50,835 nt of DNA, taken from Bacteroidaceae bacterium (GTDB lineage Bacteria > Bacteroidota > Bacteroidia > Bacteroidales > Bacteroidaceae). The notes under the pieces are model-generated. The model worked only from the letters and a program-made list of their open reading frames with translations, ran no database searches and was not told the origin of the DNA. The stretch spans positions 1 to 50,835 of the forward strand of contig JAGBKI010000065.1 in assembly GCA_017933995.1 (NCBI GenBank), read 5' to 3'. Within the stretch, counting starts at the first letter, position 1. Each line of letters begins with the position of its first letter. Positions 3,335 to 50,791 of this stretch are shown in pieces. The position numbers and the translations under genes are program-made.

Positions 3335-3402
3335 GGGGGAGAAAGCGCGAGGGCGTGTATGTATGGTTGTGCGAGACCCGCAAACGCTGTTCCCACTCCG
3401 CA

Positions 3403-3511
3403 AGACGCTGAAAGCGTCTCCCCCTCAGTAACCGCGGGTTCGCGCAGTGGAACGGAGCGAACCTGCGGCAGCCGCCCACACTGGAACGGACGCTGAAAGC
3501 GTCCCCCACGG
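3403..3511. repeat. REP/BIME unit 1 upstream of RAYT-1
   Basis: The unit runs hairpin GACGCTGAAAGCGTC, then CTCAGTAACCGCGGGTTCGC, a central inverted pair, CCGCCCACACTGGAACG and hairpin GGACGCTGAAAGCGTCC followed by CCCACGG. It is nearly identical to the next two units. Confidence 0.85.
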
Positions 3512-3572
3512 ACGGCAAACGAAATATGATGGCGCTGTTGTCACCCCGCTCGTCGCTGTTATCGTTCCGCAA

Positions 3573-3680
3573 GACGCTGAAAGCGTCTCCCTCTCTGTAA
3601 CCGCGGGTTCGCGGAATGAAATGGAGCGAACCTGCGGCAGCCGCCCACACTGGAACGGACGCTGAAAGCGTCCCCCACGG
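3573..3680. repeat. REP/BIME unit 2 upstream of RAYT-1
   Basis: Same structure and orientation as the unit at 3403-3511, starting 170 bases later. The main difference is in the central loop (GGAATGAAATGGAGC in place of GCAGTGGAACGGAGC). Confidence 0.85.
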
Positions 3681-3762
3681 ACGGCAAAGGTAATATGATG
3701 AAGCTCTTACCACACTGCAAATAGCCGTTTCCACCCTGCACGACGCTGTTTCCACTCCGCAA

Positions 3763-3870
3763 GACGCTGAAAGCGTCTCCCCCTCTGTAACCGCGGGTTC
3801 GCGGAATGAAATGGAGCGAACCTGCGGCAGCCGCCCACACTGGAACGGACGCTGAAAGCGTCCCCCACGG
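3763..3870. repeat. REP/BIME unit 3 upstream of RAYT-1
   Basis: Practically identical to unit 2 and starting 190 bases after it. It ends 27 bases before the transposase start codon. Confidence 0.85.
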
Positions 3871-3897
3871 GCGCACCAAGGACTATAAATATAATAT

Positions 3898-4350
3898 ATG
3901 GCCTACACCCGCCTCCTCTACCACGTCGTTTTGCGCACGAAGCACTCGCGCCTCGCTATCAACGAGGAAAACGAGCGCGCGTTCTACACGTTCGTGCTGG
4001 GCTATATGCGCAACCACGACTACACGCTGGTGCGCATCGGCGGGATGCCCGACCACGTGCATCTGCTCGTGGGGCTGCCGCCGACGGTGGGTGTCGCCAC
4101 GTTCGTACACGACCTCAAGATAAGCACCAACGTCTTTTTCAAACAGCACAACAAGGAGTTCCCGTTCTTTGAGGGCTGGACGCGCAGTTATGCGGCCTTC
4201 ACGTGCAGCGCCAAGGACAAGGCGGGTGTAGTGGAATACATCAAGACGCAAAAGGAACACCACAGCCGCACGCCGCTTGCCGACGAACTGCGCCGCCTGC
4301 TGGCGGAGAACGGCGTGGAATACAATGAAAAGTATCTCTTGGATGATTAG
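3898..4350 (+). CDS. REP-associated tyrosine transposase (IS200-type Y1 HUH protein), RAYT-1
   Basis: A 150-residue single-domain Y1_Tnp protein, the usual size of IS200/IS605 TnpA. It shows MAYTRLLYHVVLRTKHSR at the N-terminus, the HUH metal-binding pair in GMPDHVHLLVGLP (about residues 50-62), and the nucleophile region VVEYIKTQKEHH near residue 105, whose Tyr is the expected catalytic residue; all key residues are intact. Three REP units precede it and an inverted unit follows 31 bases after its stop, with no TnpB gene and no IS ends, which fits a domesticated RAYT acting on these palindromes. The 3' end overlaps the earliest plausible starts of the next gene. Confidence 0.85.
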   Translation: MAYTRLLYHVVLRTKHSRLAINEENERAFYTFVLGYMRNHDYTLVRIGGMPDHVHLLVGLPPTVGVATFVHDLKISTNVFFKQHNKEFPFFEGWTRSYAAFTCSAKDKAGVVEYIKTQKEHHSRTPLADELRRLLAENGVEYNEKYLLDD

Positions 4351-7114
4351 AACCGTCAATCATATAGGCTTTTCGCGCTCGTGGGGGACGCTTCCAGCGT
4401 CCGTCATCCCACCCCCGGCAGCCGCAGGTGCGCTCCGTTCCACTGCGCGCACCCGCGGTTACAGAGGGGGCGACGCTTCCAGCGTCGAAAGGCGCGACAG
4501 CCGAAATCTGCTACGCGCGGCCATAATCCCCGCCCGCCACATCCTCTTCCTCCTTCTCCTCCTTTTCCTCTCCCTCCCCGCCCTCGCCCAGGACAGCATA
4601 CGCGGGCGGGTGCTGGACGCGTCGACGGGCGAGCCGGTCGAGATGGCGAGCGTATACTTCACCGGCGGCGACGTGACGCTGACGGGGCGCGACGGACGCT
4701 TCGCCGTGCCTTTCCAGCGCGGCAAACTCCACGTCGCCATCGTGGGCTACACGGCCAAAATCATCACCATTCGCCGCCAGCGCGAACTGGAGGTGGAACT
4801 CGCGCCCTTCGAAAGCGAGATGGGCACCGCCGTCGTCCGCGCCAAGAAGCAGCGCTACAGCCGACGCGAGAACCCCGCCGTCGAACTGATGCGCAAGGTC
4901 ATCGCCGCCAAGCGACAGACCGACCTCCACACGCACGACTACTTCCGCTACGACCGCTACCGCCGCATGACGTTCGCCCTCGACGAGGTGACGCCCACGA
5001 CGTTCGACCTCATCACGCTGCGCCCCCTCGCCTTCCTCAAGGGCAGCGAGGAGGTGTGCCCGGAGACCGGCACCGTCATCCTGCCCGTCACCGTCGACGA
5101 GACCACCGAGACGCAGGTGTGGCGCCGCCAGCCCAAGGCCGAGAAGACCATCGTCACCGGCAAGCGCAACATCGGCGTGACGCAGCTCCTCTCCACGGGC
5201 GACAACATGACGCAGATGCTCGCCGAGTGCTTCACCGACGTGAACATCTACGACAACGAAATCATGCTCCTGCGCCACCAGTTTATGAGCCCCATCGCCA
5301 ACGGCGCGATAAACTTCTACCGCTTCTTCCTCAACGACACCACCGACATCGGCGGCGACCGCTGCGTCGACGTCACCTTCACGCCCAACAACGCGCAGGA
5401 CTTCGGCTTCAGCGGCCACCTCTACGTCGTAGTGGGCGACTCGTCGTGGCGCGTGCGCCGCGTCGAGATGGGCATACCCCACGGCTCGGGCGTGAACTGG
5501 GTGACCAACATGAGCATACGCCAGCAGTTTGTCCAGCTCTCGACGGGCGAGCCGGTGATGGAGGAGGACGACATGATTGTGCAGCTCAACCTGCTCGACC
5601 TGATGGGCAAGTGGATGATACGCCGCACGACGGCCTACTCGCACTACGATTTCGGCGAGATACCCGCGCGCACCTTCAAGTTCGAGGGCAACACGCGCAC
5701 CGAGGCGCAGGCCGCCGTGCGCGACGAGGCATACTGGGACCGCTACCGCCCCGGCTCCATCACACAGACCGAGGAGGGCGTAAAGGGCGTGATGTCGCGC
5801 ATACGCGGAATGAAGGGCTACCGGCTCTATATGGTCGCCCTGCAAGCCTTTGTCGAGAACTTCATCGAGACGGGGCGCGAGGGCAAGCCCGGCAAGGTCG
5901 ACATAGGCCCCATCCTCAGCATCGTCTCCACCAACAAGGTCGACGGCCTGCGCCTGCGCGCATCGGCGCAGACCACCGCCCACCTCAACCCCAACCTCTT
6001 CTTCAAGGGCTACCTGGCCTACGGCTTCAAGGACGGGCGGTGGAAAGGCCAACTGGAGACCACCTACTCCTTCGTGCCGAAGACCTACCGCCCGCACGAG
6101 TTCCCGCGCCACGACCTGACGCTGACCTACACCGACGACGTCTTCTCGCCCAGCGACCGCTTCCTCGGCGCCGACAAGGACAACACGTTCAAGGCGCTGA
6201 AATGGTCGGAGAGCGACCACATGTACTACCTCCGCGCCCTGCGCCTGCACTACCACCGCGAGTGGGGCAACGGCCTGCAGGTGTGGGCCGAGGCCAGCCG
6301 CGAGCGCTCCACGCCCACGCTCTCCATGTTCTACCAGCCGCTGTCCACCGGCGACGTGTCGCAGGACGCCGCTTTATACAAGAAGCACCTCAACCGCGCC
6401 GAACTCCAGCTGGGCCTGACCTACCAGCCCGGCGTCACGTGGATGAACACCAAGCAGCGCCGCTTCCCCACCAACCACGACGCCCCCATCGTCAGCCTCA
6501 GCCACACCGTCGGCGCGGCGGGTTTCCTGGGCAGCGACTACACGAGCAACCTCACCGAACTGATGCTCTACAAGCGTTTCTGGGTGGGTTCGTGGGGCAA
6601 GATTGACCTCCGCCTCAACGGCGCCGTGCAGTGGAACCGCGTGCCCTACCCCTTCCTCATCACGCCCGCCACCAACCTCTCCTACTTCCACGCCGACAAC
6701 TCCTTCTCGCTCGTCGACAACATGGAGTTCGTGGCCGACCGCTCCGTGCAGTTCTTCGGCCAGTGGGACACCAGCGGCAAACTGCTCAACCGCATCCCCC
6801 TCATCCGCAAACTGAAGTGGCGCGAACTCTTCGGCGTGAACGTCTTCTGGGGCGCGCTGTCCGAGCGCAACAACCCCTACCACAACCCCGGCGAGGCCCG
6901 CCTGTTCCACTTCCCCGGACGCTGGAACGCCGACGGCACCTTCGCCGCGCTGTCCCACCCCATTGACTACTCCCGCCCCTACGTCGAGGTATACGCCGGC
7001 GTCTACAACGTCTTCAAGGTGTTCCACATCCAGTACGTCCGCCGTCTCTCCTACCTCGACAACCCCAAGACCAAAAAGGGCGGCATACGCGTCGGCTTCG
7101 AGTTCCGCTTCTGA
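4343..7114 (+). CDS. DUF5686 / carboxypeptidase-regulatory-like outer membrane protein with disturbed start
   Basis: A large secreted protein (about 870 residues from the signal peptide) with hydrophobic stretch HILFLLLLLFLSLPALAQ, then a CarboxypepD_reg-like beta-sandwich (DSIRGRVLDASTGEPVEMASVYF to about 90 residues later), then the long DUF5686 region, predicted beta-barrel, ending in Phe (GFEFRF). The role is unknown; the family is common in Bacteroidota outer membranes. No ATG, GTG or TTG lies in frame between the REP unit and the signal peptide. The nearest are at 4343 and 4325 inside the transposase gene; using them puts about 50 REP-encoded residues before the signal sequence. The start given is therefore only the nearest ATG. 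Initiation at a rare codon (CTG 4508, ATA 4523) or loss of the native start are alternatives. The SH3 gene follows 27 bases after the stop. Confidence 0.7.
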   Translation: MIRTVNHIGFSRSWGTLPASVIPPPAAAGALRSTARTRGYRGGDASSVERRDSRNLLRAAIIPARHILFLLLLLFLSLPALAQDSIRGRVLDASTGEPVEMASVYFTGGDVTLTGRDGRFAVPFQRGKLHVAIVGYTAKIITIRRQRELEVELAPFESEMGTAVVRAKKQRYSRRENPAVELMRKVIAAKRQTDLHTHDYFRYDRYRRMTFALDEVTPTTFDLITLRPLAFLKGSEEVCPETGTVILPVTVDETTETQVWRRQPKAEKTIVTGKRNIGVTQLLSTGDNMTQMLAECFTDVNIYDNEIMLLRHQFMSPIANGAINFYRFFLNDTTDIGGDRCVDVTFTPNNAQDFGFSGHLYVVVGDSSWRVRRVEMGIPHGSGVNWVTNMSIRQQFVQLSTGEPVMEEDDMIVQLNLLDLMGKWMIRRTTAYSHYDFGEIPARTFKFEGNTRTEAQAAVRDEAYWDRYRPGSITQTEEGVKGVMSRIRGMKGYRLYMVALQAFVENFIETGREGKPGKVDIGPILSIVSTNKVDGLRLRASAQTTAHLNPNLFFKGYLAYGFKDGRWKGQLETTYSFVPKTYRPHEFPRHDLTLTYTDDVFSPSDRFLGADKDNTFKALKWSESDHMYYLRALRLHYHREWGNGLQVWAEASRERSTPTLSMFYQPLSTGDVSQDAALYKKHLNRAELQLGLTYQPGVTWMNTKQRRFPTNHDAPIVSLSHTVGAAGFLGSDYTSNLTELMLYKRFWVGSWGKIDLRLNGAVQWNRVPYPFLITPATNLSYFHADNSFSLVDNMEFVADRSVQFFGQWDTSGKLLNRIPLIRKLKWRELFGVNVFWGALSERNNPYHNPGEARLFHFPGRWNADGTFAALSHPIDYSRPYVEVYAGVYNVFKVFHIQYVRRLSYLDNPKTKKGGIRVGFEFRF
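4381..4487. repeat. Inverted REP/BIME unit downstream of RAYT-1
   Basis: The reverse complement of the upstream units (GTGGGGGACGCTTCCAGCGTCC at the left end, GGGCGACGCTTCCAGCGTCG at the right end), so the transposase gene is bracketed by units in opposite orientation. It lies between the start candidates and the signal peptide of the next gene. Confidence 0.85.
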
Positions 7115-13555: not shown

Positions 13556-13798
13556 TTTGAGGTTTATTGAACATTGACCATTGACCATTGCCGTCCGGCA
13601 CAGTCTCGGCACGTAGCCAATGTTTCTTGGTTATTGTTTTGAGGTTTATTGAACATTGACCATTGCCGTCCGGCACAGTCTCGGCGCGTAGCCAATGTTT
13701 CTTGGTTGTTGTTTTTCTTTTATTATTTAGCAGTCCGGCACATTTTCGTCGCGTAGCCAATGGTCAATGGTCAATGGTCAATGGCCAATGGTCAAAAG
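13556..13798. repeat. Tandem about 80-bp repeat with TTGACCA / TGGTCAA 7-bp arrays
   Basis: Two near-identical blocks (13556-13636 and 13637-13717) read GAGGTTTATTGAACATTGACC, GTCCGGCACAGTCTCGGC and CGTAGCCAATGTTTCTTGG. A third, partial block at 13731 runs into an inverted array of the 7-base word TGGTCAA (about five copies). The array ends inside the stop codon of the outer-membrane barrel gene. Blocks differ mainly by one 7-base unit. Confidence 0.8.
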
Positions 13799-20085: not shown

Positions 20086-20169
20086 GAATTTTTCTTTGAG
20101 CCAAAGAAAATTTTATTTAGGCCAAAGAATTTTTTCTTTGGCTCAAAGAAAAATTTCCACGGGGCGAAA
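20086..20169. repeat. 21-bp minisatellite, four units
   Basis: Four contiguous 21-base AT-rich units built around TTTCTTTG...CCAAAG. Units 1 and 3 are alike, unit 2 is diverged and the last is degenerate. Adjacent units can pair as hairpins. The period of 21 yields 7-residue repeats (RIFSLAQ, RKFYLGQ) in the open plus frame, but no gene is supported. The array lies between the divergent gmd and hisA promoters. Confidence 0.75.
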
Positions 20170-29096: not shown

Positions 29097-29114
29097 AACT
29101 TTAAGGGGAGTTTG

Positions 29115-29240
29115 GAGGAGTTAAAAGGAATTATAGAGGAGTTAGAGGCCGAATGGCGAACTAACAAAAGTGCGGTAGAGGAGTTAAAAGGAGTTATAGG
29201 GGAGTTAGAAACCGAATGGCGAACTAACAAAGACGGAGTA
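29115..29240. repeat. 21-bp units in two 63-bp tandem copies
   Basis: Six 21-base units in the order A-B-C-A-B-C, so the same three-unit block occurs twice (29115-29177, 29178-29240). Unit A starts GAGGAGTTAAAAGGA, unit B starts G(A/G)GGAGTTAGA, unit C starts CGAACTAACAAA. The plus frame would read EELKG.I/(E,G)ELE.EW/RTNK as 7-residue repeats. No gene is supported. It lies upstream of deoC and after the MazG-like gene stop. The words GGAGTTAAA and GGAGTTAGA are shared with the uvrA insertion. Confidence 0.8.
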
Positions 29241-29280
29241 GGGTGGGGGAGGAGGAATCCGGAGGTATTGCTGCCTGATA

Positions 29281-44612: not shown

Positions 44613-47600
44613 ATGAAGAAACCCACACTGCGCCCTGCGGCAGCCGCCACTGCGGCAGCCGACGACGGGCAGACCATCCAAATAAAAGGCGCGCGCGTAA
44701 ACAACCTGAAGAACATCGACGTGCGCATCCCGCGCGACAAACTCATCGTCGTGACGGGTCTCTCGGGCAGCGGCAAGTCGTCGCTGGCCTTCGACACGCT
44801 CTATGCCGAGGGACAGCGGCGCTACGTGGAGAGCCTCTCGGCCTACGCCCGCCAGTTCCTGGGGCGTATGAAGAAGCCCGACTGCGACTACATCAAAGGC
44901 ATACCGCCCGCCATCGCCATCGAGCAGAAGGTGACCAACCGAAACTCGCGCTCCACCGTGGGCACGTCCACCGAAATCTACGACTACCTGCGCCTGCTCT
45001 TCGCCCGCATAGGCCACACCATCTCGCCCGTGAGCGGACAGGAGGTGAAGCGCCACACCGTGAAGGACGTCACCGACTGCATCGCCTCCTATTCGCCCGG
45101 CACGCGCTTCACGGTGCTGGCCCCGATGCGCATACGCCACGGGCGCACCCTGCGCGAGCAACTGGAGGTAGACCTCAAGCAGGGACTTACGCGCCTCGAC
45201 ATCGACGGCGAACTGGTGCATATAGAGGACGTGCTGAAAGGGGAGGTAAAGTTAAAGGAGTTAGAGGGAGTTAAAGGGGAGTTAGAAGGAGTTAAAGGGC
45301 CGATAGTCGCGGCGGACGAAACTGCGGCAAACAAAACAGCACCTGACGAAACTGCGGCGGACGAAACTACGGCTAACAGTAACGGCTCTATAACTCCCCC
45401 TAACTCCCCCTTAACTCCCCCTAACTCCCCTAAAATCTACCTCCTCATCGACCGCCTCTCCGCCGGCACCGACCGCGAGACGCTCTCGCGCCTGGCCGAC
45501 AGCGTGCAGACGGCCTTCTACGAGGGCGACGGGCGCATGATGCTACGCATATACCCCGCGCGCACGCTCCACTTTTTCTCGGGCAGTTTCGAGGCCGACG
45601 GCATCACGTTCGAGGAACCCACCGACCAGACCTTCTCCTTCAACTCGCCGCTCGGCGCCTGCCCCCATTGCGAGGGCTTCGGCAAGGTCATCGGCATTGA
45701 CGAACACCTCGTCGTGCCCGACACGTCGCTCAGCGTCCACGACGGCGCCGTTGTCTGCTGGCGCGGCGAGAAGATGAGCCAGTGGCGACGCGAATTCTGC
45801 CGCCGCTACGCCCTGCGTGGCTTCCCCATCTTCAAGCCCTACGCCGACCTGTCGCGGCAGGAGAAGGACGCCCTCTGGCACGGCGATGACGAAGAGCGAC
45901 GCCTGCCGCGCGAGGAGCAGGTGTCCGTCGACGCCTTCTTCGACTACGTGCAGTCGCAGCAGTACAAGATACAGTACCGTGTGATGCTGGCGCGCTACCG
46001 TGGCAAGACCGTCTGCCCCCACTGCCACGGCTCGCGCCTCAAGCCCGAGGCGCTCTACGTCAAGGTGGGCGGACGCCATATCGGCGAACTCGTCGAGATG
46101 CCCGTCAGCGACCTCGCCCGCTGGTTCGACGCCCTCCAACTCCCCGAGCACGAAGCCCGCGTGGGCGAACGCCTGCTGGCCGAAATCAAGAGCCGCCTCA
46201 AGTTCCTGCAAGACGTCGGCCTGGGCTACCTGACCCTTTCGCGCCAGTCGTCCACCCTGAGCGGCGGCGAGAGCCAGCGCATCAACCTGGCCACCTCGCT
46301 GGGCAGTTCGCTCGTCGGCTCGCTCTACATCCTCGACGAGCCCAGCATCGGCCTCCACAGCCGCGACACCGCCCGCCTCATCTCCGTCCTGCAGGCCCTG
46401 CGCGACGCCGGCAACACGGTGCTCATCGTCGAGCACGACGAGGAGATTATGCGCGCCGCCGACTATGTGATTGACATCGGCCCCGAGGCCGGCACCGGCG
46501 GAGGCGAGGTCGTCCTCAGCGGCACGCTCGACGAGATAAAGGCCATGTCGCCCCAGCAAATCAGCCAGAGCCGCAGCCACACGGCCAAATACCTCAACTG
46601 CCTGGAGCGCATATCCGTACCCGCCACGCGCCGCCCCTGGAACCGCTTCATCGAGGTGAATGGCGCGCGCGAAAACAACCTGCGCGCCATCGACGTGCGC
46701 TTCCCGCTCAACGTCCTCACCGTCGTGACGGGCGTCAGCGGCTCGGGCAAGAGCACACTGGTGCGCGACATCCTCTACAATGCCCTGATGCGCCACTTCG
46801 ACCTCACCGGCGCCCAGCGGCCCGGCCAGCACACCGCCCTCGGCGGCGACCTCGACGCCATCAGCGCCGTCGAGTTCGTCGACCAGAACCCCATCGGCAA
46901 GTCCACACGCTCCAATCCCGTCACCTACGTCAAGGCATACGACGAGATACGCGCCCTTATGGCCGCGCAGCCACTGGCCAAACAGCAGGGTTTCACGCCC
47001 GCCTACTTCTCCTTCAACACCGACGGAGGCCGCTGCGAGGAGTGCAAGGGCGACGGCACCGTAAAGGTCGAGATGCAGTTCATGGCCGACCTCAACCTGA
47101 CGTGCGAAGCCTGCGGCGGAAAGCGTTTCAAGCGCGACGTCCTCGAAGTGCGCTACGAGGGCAAGAACATCCACGACATCCTCGAAATGACCGTCGATGA
47201 AGCCCTTTCGTTATTCGGGCAGCACGGCCAGCAGCGCGTCTGCCGCCTGTTGCAGCCCCTGCAGGACGTCGGCCTGGGCTACGTCAAACTGGGTCAGTCG
47301 TCGTCCACCCTCAGCGGCGGCGAGAACCAGCGCGTCAAACTGGCCTACTACATCGGCACCGAGACCGCACGCCCCACGCTCTTCATCTTCGACGAACCCA
47401 CCACCGGCCTCCACTTCCACGACATCAGCCGCCTGCTGCGCGCCTTCGACGCCCTCATCGCGCGCGGCCACTCCATACTCATCATCGAACACAACGCCGA
47501 AATCATCAAGTGCGCCGACTGGTGCATCGACCTCGGCCCCGAGGGCGGCGAACAGGGCGGACGCCTCGTCGCCCAAGGCACCCCCGAGCAACTCGTCGCC

Positions 47601-47672
47601 CAAAACAAAGGCTACACCGCCCGCTTCCTCGCCGAAAAACTCACCGCCCCCGCCACCTGTAACCGCCAGTAG
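44613..47672 (+). CDS. uvrA: Excinuclease ABC subunit A with an in-frame repeat insertion
   Basis: A 1019-residue damage-recognition ATPase of excision repair. First ATP site: [20 protein letters not shown] and signature [18 protein letters not shown] with [10 protein letters not shown]. Second site: [31 protein letters not shown] and [10 protein letters not shown]. Zinc-binding Cys pairs are in [26 protein letters not shown] and CEACGGKRF. Residues about 209-274, between VHIEDVL and KIYLLIDRL, are foreign to the family: heptads (KGELEGV), an Asp/Glu/Thr/Ala stretch and PNSPLTP repeats. This segment lies in or next to the UvrB-binding domain. The start is downstream of the -7 box. Confidence 0.96.
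45241..45432. repeat. 21-bp repeat array inserted in uvrA
   Basis: The G-rich left arm (units built of GGAGTTAGA and GGAGTTAAA, 45253-45299) is followed by about 95 bases with GACGAAACTGCGG repeats. The right arm has two 21-base units of TAACTCCCCC words (45391-45432). The arms are partly complementary and could form a long hairpin. All units keep the reading frame open. The left arm words recur at 29115-29240. Confidence 0.8.
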
Positions 47673-50615: not shown

Positions 50616-50620
50616 CCACC

Positions 50621-50791
50621 AGTTGGAGCGCAGGCGTCCCGCCTGCGACCAGCGCGAAACGTAACTAAAGTTTGCGATAGCCCTTGTCGCAGGCCAGTTG
50701 GAGCGCAGGCGTCTCGCCTGCGACTATTGCTAAACGTAACTTTATTTTGGGATAGTCCTTGGCGCAGGCGGGACGCCGGCGCTCCAACTGG
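50621..50791. repeat. Three copies of the GCAGGCGTCCCGCCTGC palindrome family
   Basis: Two direct copies (50621-50650 and 50696-50724, beginning AGTTGGAGCGCAGGCGTC) and one inverted copy (50762-50791). Each is followed by the word AAACGTAAC. Matches the copy at 221-252. The downstream end of the window lies in this cluster. Confidence 0.8.

Follow-up and report, generated by a model that had tools for sequence, protein, structure and literature searches.

A dispersed palindromic element as the probable source of an in-frame insert in the UvrA_inter domain of a Bacteroidaceae UvrA

Why does a predicted UvrA carry a 65-residue repetitive segment between VHIEDVL and KIYLLIDRL, and where did that segment come from? 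The gene lies in the window, the whole 50,835-nt stretch of DNA analysed here, which belongs to a metagenome-type draft assembly (2.48 Mb in 66 contigs, 83.7% complete). By reading frame and by family model uvrA is a complete gene: its product scores 1079.8 bits against the 729.8-bit cut-off of TIGR00630 (UvrA, NCBIfam), matching in two stretches, and 1105.6 against PRK00349, under that model's cut-off of 1147. The Pfam model UvrA_inter (PF17760), which we take to be the UvrB-binding domain, matches residues 149-209 and covers only positions 2-62 of its 109, so that the match ends where the insert starts. A first-pass annotation had proposed, from the letters alone, an in-frame repeat insert in the UvrB-binding region, and both parts hold: the insert (45241-45433) falls in UvrA_inter, and the frame stays open from 44613 to 47672. 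The features are as follows.

44613..47672, + strand: uvrA, ATG at 44613 to stop at 47672, 1019 aa, no internal stop, with an in-frame interruption in the UvrA_inter domain.
45237..45433, + strand: the whole repeat element within uvrA, boundaries approximate, with a degenerate outer unit at 45237-45251.
45252..45299, + strand: G-rich arm, GGAGTTA units at 10/11-nt spacing, encoding 14 residues.
45297..45390, + strand: core, starting GGGCCGATAGTCGCGGCGGACGAAACTGCGG and extended by 15-nt tandem units.
45391..45433, + strand: C-rich arm, TAACTCCCCC units complementary to the G-rich arm, encoding 13 residues.
29103..29243, + strand: another site of the same repeat, intergenic, two copies of the G-rich arm plus partial core, 63 nt apart.

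The insert is built as an inverted repeat. Its arms (45252-45305 and 45380-45433, 54 nt each, 74 nt between them) are 83% complementary, in agreement with the partly complementary G-rich and C-rich arms first described. In each arm the units are spaced by 10, 11 and 10 nt; two 21-nt units at 45257-45298 are 95% alike, and the TAACTCCCCC units occupy 45391-45430. The 7-residue period ascribed to the segment applies to these arms only, the middle (45319-45378) consisting of 15-nt units, that is five codons. The DNA has strong hairpin potential: when 45236-45436 was folded as a single strand, z was -6.85 for RNA and -5.96 for DNA, and in either case none of 200 shuffles was equally stable.

UvrA matches were found in all 61 genomes searched, and the expectation that related proteins carry only a short loop was confirmed by aligning 29 same-genus orthologues, in which the linker from HIE to LLIDR spans 11-31 residues (median 18) versus 71 here. 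In the closest relatives (G012 and G019, 82% and 79% identical past the insert), the linkers lack the repeat and measure 28 and 30 residues. Beside the insert that native linker can no longer be recognised, which points to replacement or erosion and not to a clean interruption. Sequence alignment to the solved UvrA 2r6f (3uwx has an identical chain sequence) places the insert between chain residues 208 and 223, and the predicted loop gains about 50 extra amino acids from the palindromic repeat. A second UvrA is encoded in the same genome (on contig C51); it is 46% identical, has a short linker without insert and matches the UvrA family across the 737 residues tested, so the insert in uvrA may be buffered by redundancy. 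An altered UvrB contact, which the first-pass annotation had raised for an exposed loop, is at most a possibility.

The uvrA insert represents a dispersed repeat, which we call family A. A 260-nt query from the uvrA site finds 39 matches in its own genome at E<=0.001 (self-match counted); the seven best others show 83-89% DNA identity across 63-77 nt. The pattern GAGTTAN{4,5}GAGTTA occurs 68 times and its reversed control 0 times. The left-arm words had earlier been linked to one intergenic array at 29115-29240. This link is real, since two 54-nt copies lie there, 63 nt apart and 93% alike, with the arm words and part of the core of the uvrA insert; its restriction to one site is not, since matches reach many places in the genome. 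Minus-strand genes flank that array on either side, one with a MazG domain and one of the DeoC family, and no C-rich arm was seen at 29103..29243. Other repeats in the window include tandem repeats of about two copies at 13573-13715 and 50619-50769 (75-bp units, differing in sequence) and palindromic TTTTCTTTGGCCAAAGAAAA-type repeats with a 21-bp period at 20090-20157.

Eighteen family A arrays were read, a sample taken from the window and 14 of 15 fetched stretches rather than from the whole genome; 16 of them lie outside any open coding frame. The elements tested are inverted arrays of 132-201 nt, and among unit spacings of up to 16 nt, 68 of 71 are 10 or 11 nt. A core of ~45 nt is shared by seven segments picked by eye (two from the uvrA middle, five from other sites), and a shorter relative of it is present twice at the 29-kb site; the middles of arrays on contigs C52, C2, C62 (two arrays) and C57 look unlike it. 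Neighbours identified by Pfam include FtsA, a deoxynucleoside kinase and DPP IV; from N-terminal resemblance we presume that ClpP, ClpX, LpxA and the small subunit of carbamoyl-phosphate synthase are others. The remaining fetched stretch (L053, contig C27) was excluded: its GAGTTAGAGGCA repeats were judged the ordinary spacer repeat of what is presumably an HsdS-like specificity subunit. In that gene (L053:2333-3529) the ELEA spacer repeats perhaps make a length-variable specificity subunit.

How widely is the repeat distributed? In one same-genus genome, G028, the two-unit pattern is matched 23 times (reversed control 0). The pattern is absent from 31 of the remaining 35 same-genus genomes and occurs 1-3 times in four, close to control level; 24 genomes of other families give 0-6 matches versus 0-13 in controls. 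Twenty copies from G028 were read. Compared pairwise, the first 14 (91 pairs) are at the median 85% identical and their upstream flanks 44%; all 55 unit spacings are 9 or 10 nt. Many of these copies (L171-L190) come after a TTCAACTTTCGGAAGC-like stretch and enclose a nested hairpin, TCGCAGCCTATGGCTGCTGA. Further afield, the unit pattern is present in at least 117 stretches; among the 80 records listed, 79 are titled Bacteroidales or wider Bacteroidetes groups (Minthosoma is one title) the exception being an Acidaminococcaceae MAG. These family A-bearing records include matches of up to 71% to proteins of this genome, and on both counts we place the genome in the Bacteroidales. A GACGATAG/CTATCGTC motif is present in some of the named genomes, and ten viral contigs (L282-L291) hold a three-unit family A pattern, L283 and L284 more than once.

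Three orthologous sites were compared with relatives: the clpP-clpX spacer, the uvrA linker and the linker of a 4Fe-4S protein. The clpP-clpX spacer, with ends extrapolated from alignments, measures 179 bp here and is filled by a family A element, versus about 16 bp in G012 and about 13 bp in G019; in the 28 relatives measured (20 same-genus, 8 from other families) it ranges from -20 to 105 bp. The element-filled spacer, set against those of the closest relatives, supports a gain of the element at this place, where no target-site duplication was recognised by eye.

A second in-gene copy lies in that 4Fe-4S protein (contig C6; NapH-like, far under the NCBIfam cut-off). It reads KGEQRGGKEELEGIKGSNVVANETAANGNGTITPPNSPITPLNSP, in the same frame as in uvrA, and the inserted peptides of the two proteins are very similar. 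Apart from itself, the uvrA copy matches this one best, so the two may not be independent. The ideal 21-nt unit of family A has one open frame per strand, and only two of eight intergenic elements tested have any open frame. A coding-frame score over the 18 arrays put two in one continuous open frame (uvrA and the 4Fe-4S protein), four in the same frame with stops and 12 in differing frames; uvrA, the 4Fe-4S protein and four of the six family B genes given below were in the training set of the coding model, which makes the score partly circular for these, and the family matches are independent of it. Across 189 arrays (own genome, 20 stretches from G028 and 117 named stretches), five are open (>=60 and 40 codons either side), and only the uvrA and 4Fe-4S copies among them are convincing. 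Two read-through frames were dropped, one at window 29118, antisense to the spacer between two minus-strand genes, the other in L079, judged weak. A crude simulation of random unit spacings left 2.9% open and is given no weight.

The 4Fe-4S protein led to an unrelated repeat. Its alignment shows other repetitive linkers at the identical point in two further genomes, G016 and G031, and the linker DNA of G016 is a different dispersed repeat (family B), with 57 matches at E<=1, several of them adjacent inverted pairs, and a commonest same-strand spacing of 21 nt. An 80-nt family B consensus has matches in four of the 61 genomes: G016 (21), G031 (18), G026 (4) and G022 (1). The survey of G016 covered the best 40 of 203 first-look candidates, which gave 40 distinct places and 41 arrays. 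Six of the 41 lie in frame in family-supported genes (the 4Fe-4S protein, LpxK, a LysM protein, an HU-like/LysM protein, a sulfatase and BirA). Five of these copies read GKTSTTT; the BirA copy reads NKYYDR, and its use of another frame rules out that family B is always read in one. Ten arrays had scored as same-frame-open and four were dropped, L308 and L316 because the array precedes the start of the UbiE and tRNA-synthetase matches, L310 and L387 for want of a family match. A peptide-directed search in G016, which is frame-biased, adds IspG, which exceeds the PRK02048 cut-off and matches either side of the insert, together with an MG2-domain protein and two further proteins without family support.

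L292, L295, L315, L356 and L361 of G016: in-frame family B loci in the 4Fe-4S protein, LpxK, BirA, sulfatase and IspG genes.

In G031, the 4Fe-4S linker shares only an 18-nt match with family B (E 0.42) and is at most a candidate copy. In-frame stretches in a sulfatase and a DUF805 protein of the same genome are 76-79% identical to family B, and neither is reported by a DNA profile of the G016 copies; a single event shared by G016 and G031 may account for the sulfatase site in both. Five of the six frames of the family B unit are open, so the lean to the hydrophilic frame hints, in small numbers, at selection on the protein. The first-pass annotation had also argued that a period divisible by three lets a repeat enter genes without breaking them. 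This suits family B, with its 21-nt units and mostly open frames, better than family A, whose ideal unit offers one open frame per strand and which has only two of its 18 arrays in a coding frame that is open. For the in-gene copies of family A, selection after insertion is at least as good an account as the period alone.

Together, we consider it likely (a probability of roughly four in five) that the uvrA segment is a copy of a dispersed palindromic element, a Bacteroidales counterpart of the Rickettsia palindromic elements, kept where frame and loop allow. In support stand the dispersal of the family, the additional element at an orthologous spacer, the unbroken frame, another in-gene copy read in that same frame, and a relative in which an unrelated family does likewise. 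The element, in which inverted arrays of 10/11-nt units enclose a core (~45 nt in several copies), would spread to new places, probably through an enzyme supplied in trans. One copy would have come to lie in the hypervariable linker of the UvrA_inter (UvrB-binding) domain and been retained thanks to the match between its one open frame and that of the gene. Selection would presumably remove insertions that break genes, and in-gene copies would persist given an open frame and a permissive loop, the gene then encoding a flexible hydrophilic insertion. Unit number varies, and the uvrA middle may have been lengthened by local duplication. The extra peptide is probably a tolerated flexible loop; there is no sign that the insertion benefits the cell.

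Alternatively, the arrays might be selected regulatory elements (a terminator, an mRNA-stability hairpin or a protein-binding array), their in-gene copies being accidental. Several observations lend this some weight: the best-scoring flanks of 13 of 16 non-genic arrays are co-directional (several flank scores are weak), an ATG start stands 6-22 nt past the array in six cases, the uvrA hairpin is strong, and the 10- or 11-nt spacing is near one helical turn. Pairing within copies points the same way without reaching significance. In this genome, a copy's own arms pair slightly better than swapped arms (nine elements, 284/2000); adding four named genomes with two or more elements gives 498/5000 (18 elements), not significant, and the named genomes alone 1265/5000 (nine elements). 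Pooling with G028, where arms are poorly delimited, gives the opposite direction (4975/5000), and swaps among different named genomes (29 elements, 0/2000) are confounded by genome differences. Against regulation, the orthologous clpP-clpX spacers of relatives hold no element, the window has no Rfam match, and the spacings of 9 or 10 nt in G028 spoil helical phasing, which is thus weakened as a rule. We regard a regulatory origin as doubtful, though not far-fetched.

Are the arrays instead REP sequences moved by a RAYT (Y1 transposase)? The genome has five PF01797 matches, one of them a RAYT-like gene within the window, and REPs in uvrA of other bacteria are reported in PMC3733652. None of the five has a GAGTTA/TAACTC unit in its fetched flanks; the RAYT of the window and the single PF01797 match of G028 sit amid other repeats, the latter with one lone GAGTTA nearby; G012 has PF01797 matches without the family A pattern; and inverted unit arrays are unlike REPs of 20-40 nt. 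A RAYT was rejected as mobiliser for lack of adjacency to family A in G028 or in this genome, where at 83.7% completeness one may be missing; our search for a mobilising gene, which covered Y1 transposases (PF01797), found none. We therefore hold this explanation to be unlikely. At window 3378-4490, the RAYT-like gene (3898-4350, + strand) has GACGCTGAAAGCGTC-type repeats on both sides, with a TRF unit of 169 bp on the upstream one; gene and repeats make up a REP/RAYT-like pair that is distinct from family A.

It is very improbable that the native UvrA linker simply grew by slippage, its intergenic resemblance being a low-complexity coincidence. Linker length does vary in the genus, and the 15-nt repeats of the uvrA middle resemble local duplication; slippage is nevertheless largely refuted by the non-repetitive core common to five other sites, and the high identity of the seven best other matches, the excess of pattern matches over the reversed control and the very similar peptide in an unrelated protein also oppose it. 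An assembly artefact, conceivable in a repeat-rich region of a 66-contig draft, is scarcely credible given a frame kept across about 195 nt inside a contig and a pattern that recurs in another gene and, with another repeat, in another species.

Beyond the dispersed-element reading, we tentatively raise a broader possibility: Bacteroidales could hold a class of modular inverted-array elements whose sequences differ between species and whose unit length is often close to 10.5 or 21 nt, and these elements could enter the same protein linkers in frame time and again. Since 21 nt correspond both to seven codons and to roughly two turns of the helix, a single array could serve as intergenic DNA repeat and as coding linker alike. 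If so, selfish DNA would be a regular source of new disordered linkers in Bacteroidales.

As far as our searches reach, families A and B, the array architecture in Bacteroidales and the occurrence of two unrelated families in one linker are new: in the open-licence literature searched, mostly by listings, we found no earlier description of these families, and a paper with 26 occurrences of family sequence words was set aside, the part available containing 16S amplicon sequences, an unrelated match. Within the same bacterial order, the BrickBuilt MITE of Porphyromonas gingivalis is also a dispersed element of tandem units (19 copies in one strain); it is described (PMC4596501) as always intergenic, a single tandem array with short inverted ends that resemble IS ends. 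Its 23-nt unit, AGAYCATARTATCCTCTCRTRTG, is not matched by the units here, our families also lie in genes, and family A is two inverted arrays rather than one tandem array. As for MITEs in general, inverted ends are seen in family A, and the clpP-clpX site gave no recognisable duplication by eye.

The GTAG/CGTC REPs of PMC3733652 are hairpins of 20-40 bp that carry one of these two tags, and transposase genes are associated with the GTAG type; the REPs are mostly intergenic palindromes near gene ends, also found inside genes, including uvrA of Opitutus terrae and Thioalkalivibrio, and repair genes are remarked on there. Palindromes in uvrA are hence not new, and family A is likewise mostly intergenic and also inside uvrA; it differs in being an array of about 130-200 nt with no RAYT found beside it. 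The closest likeness is to the Rickettsia palindromic elements, described in PMC10969869 and PMC3733652 as dispersed palindromes of about 150 bp, many lying in frame in unrelated genes and each encoding a conserved peptide. Family A is also a palindromic repeat in many copies, and the elements lie in frame in conserved genes with both flanks intact (uvrA and the 4Fe-4S protein for family A, 6 of 40 places in G016 for family B). The likeness is one of mechanism and description. Rickettsia belongs to another phylum; here each arm repeats a unit, of 10/11 nt in family A and 21 nt in family B, a variable number of times, and most family A copies read lie outside genes. Rickettsia is the best-known source of in-frame palindromic elements, and REPs supply further cases in other bacteria (PMC10969869, PMC3733652). 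A Bacteroidales genus in which two unrelated families lie in frame in genes, both of them in one 4Fe-4S linker, provides a study group outside Rickettsia, suited to asking whether insertions are neutral, whether DNA repair is altered by them and how the elements move. The finding also warns that core proteins, UvrA, IspG and LpxK among them, will turn out to contain repeat-derived loops.
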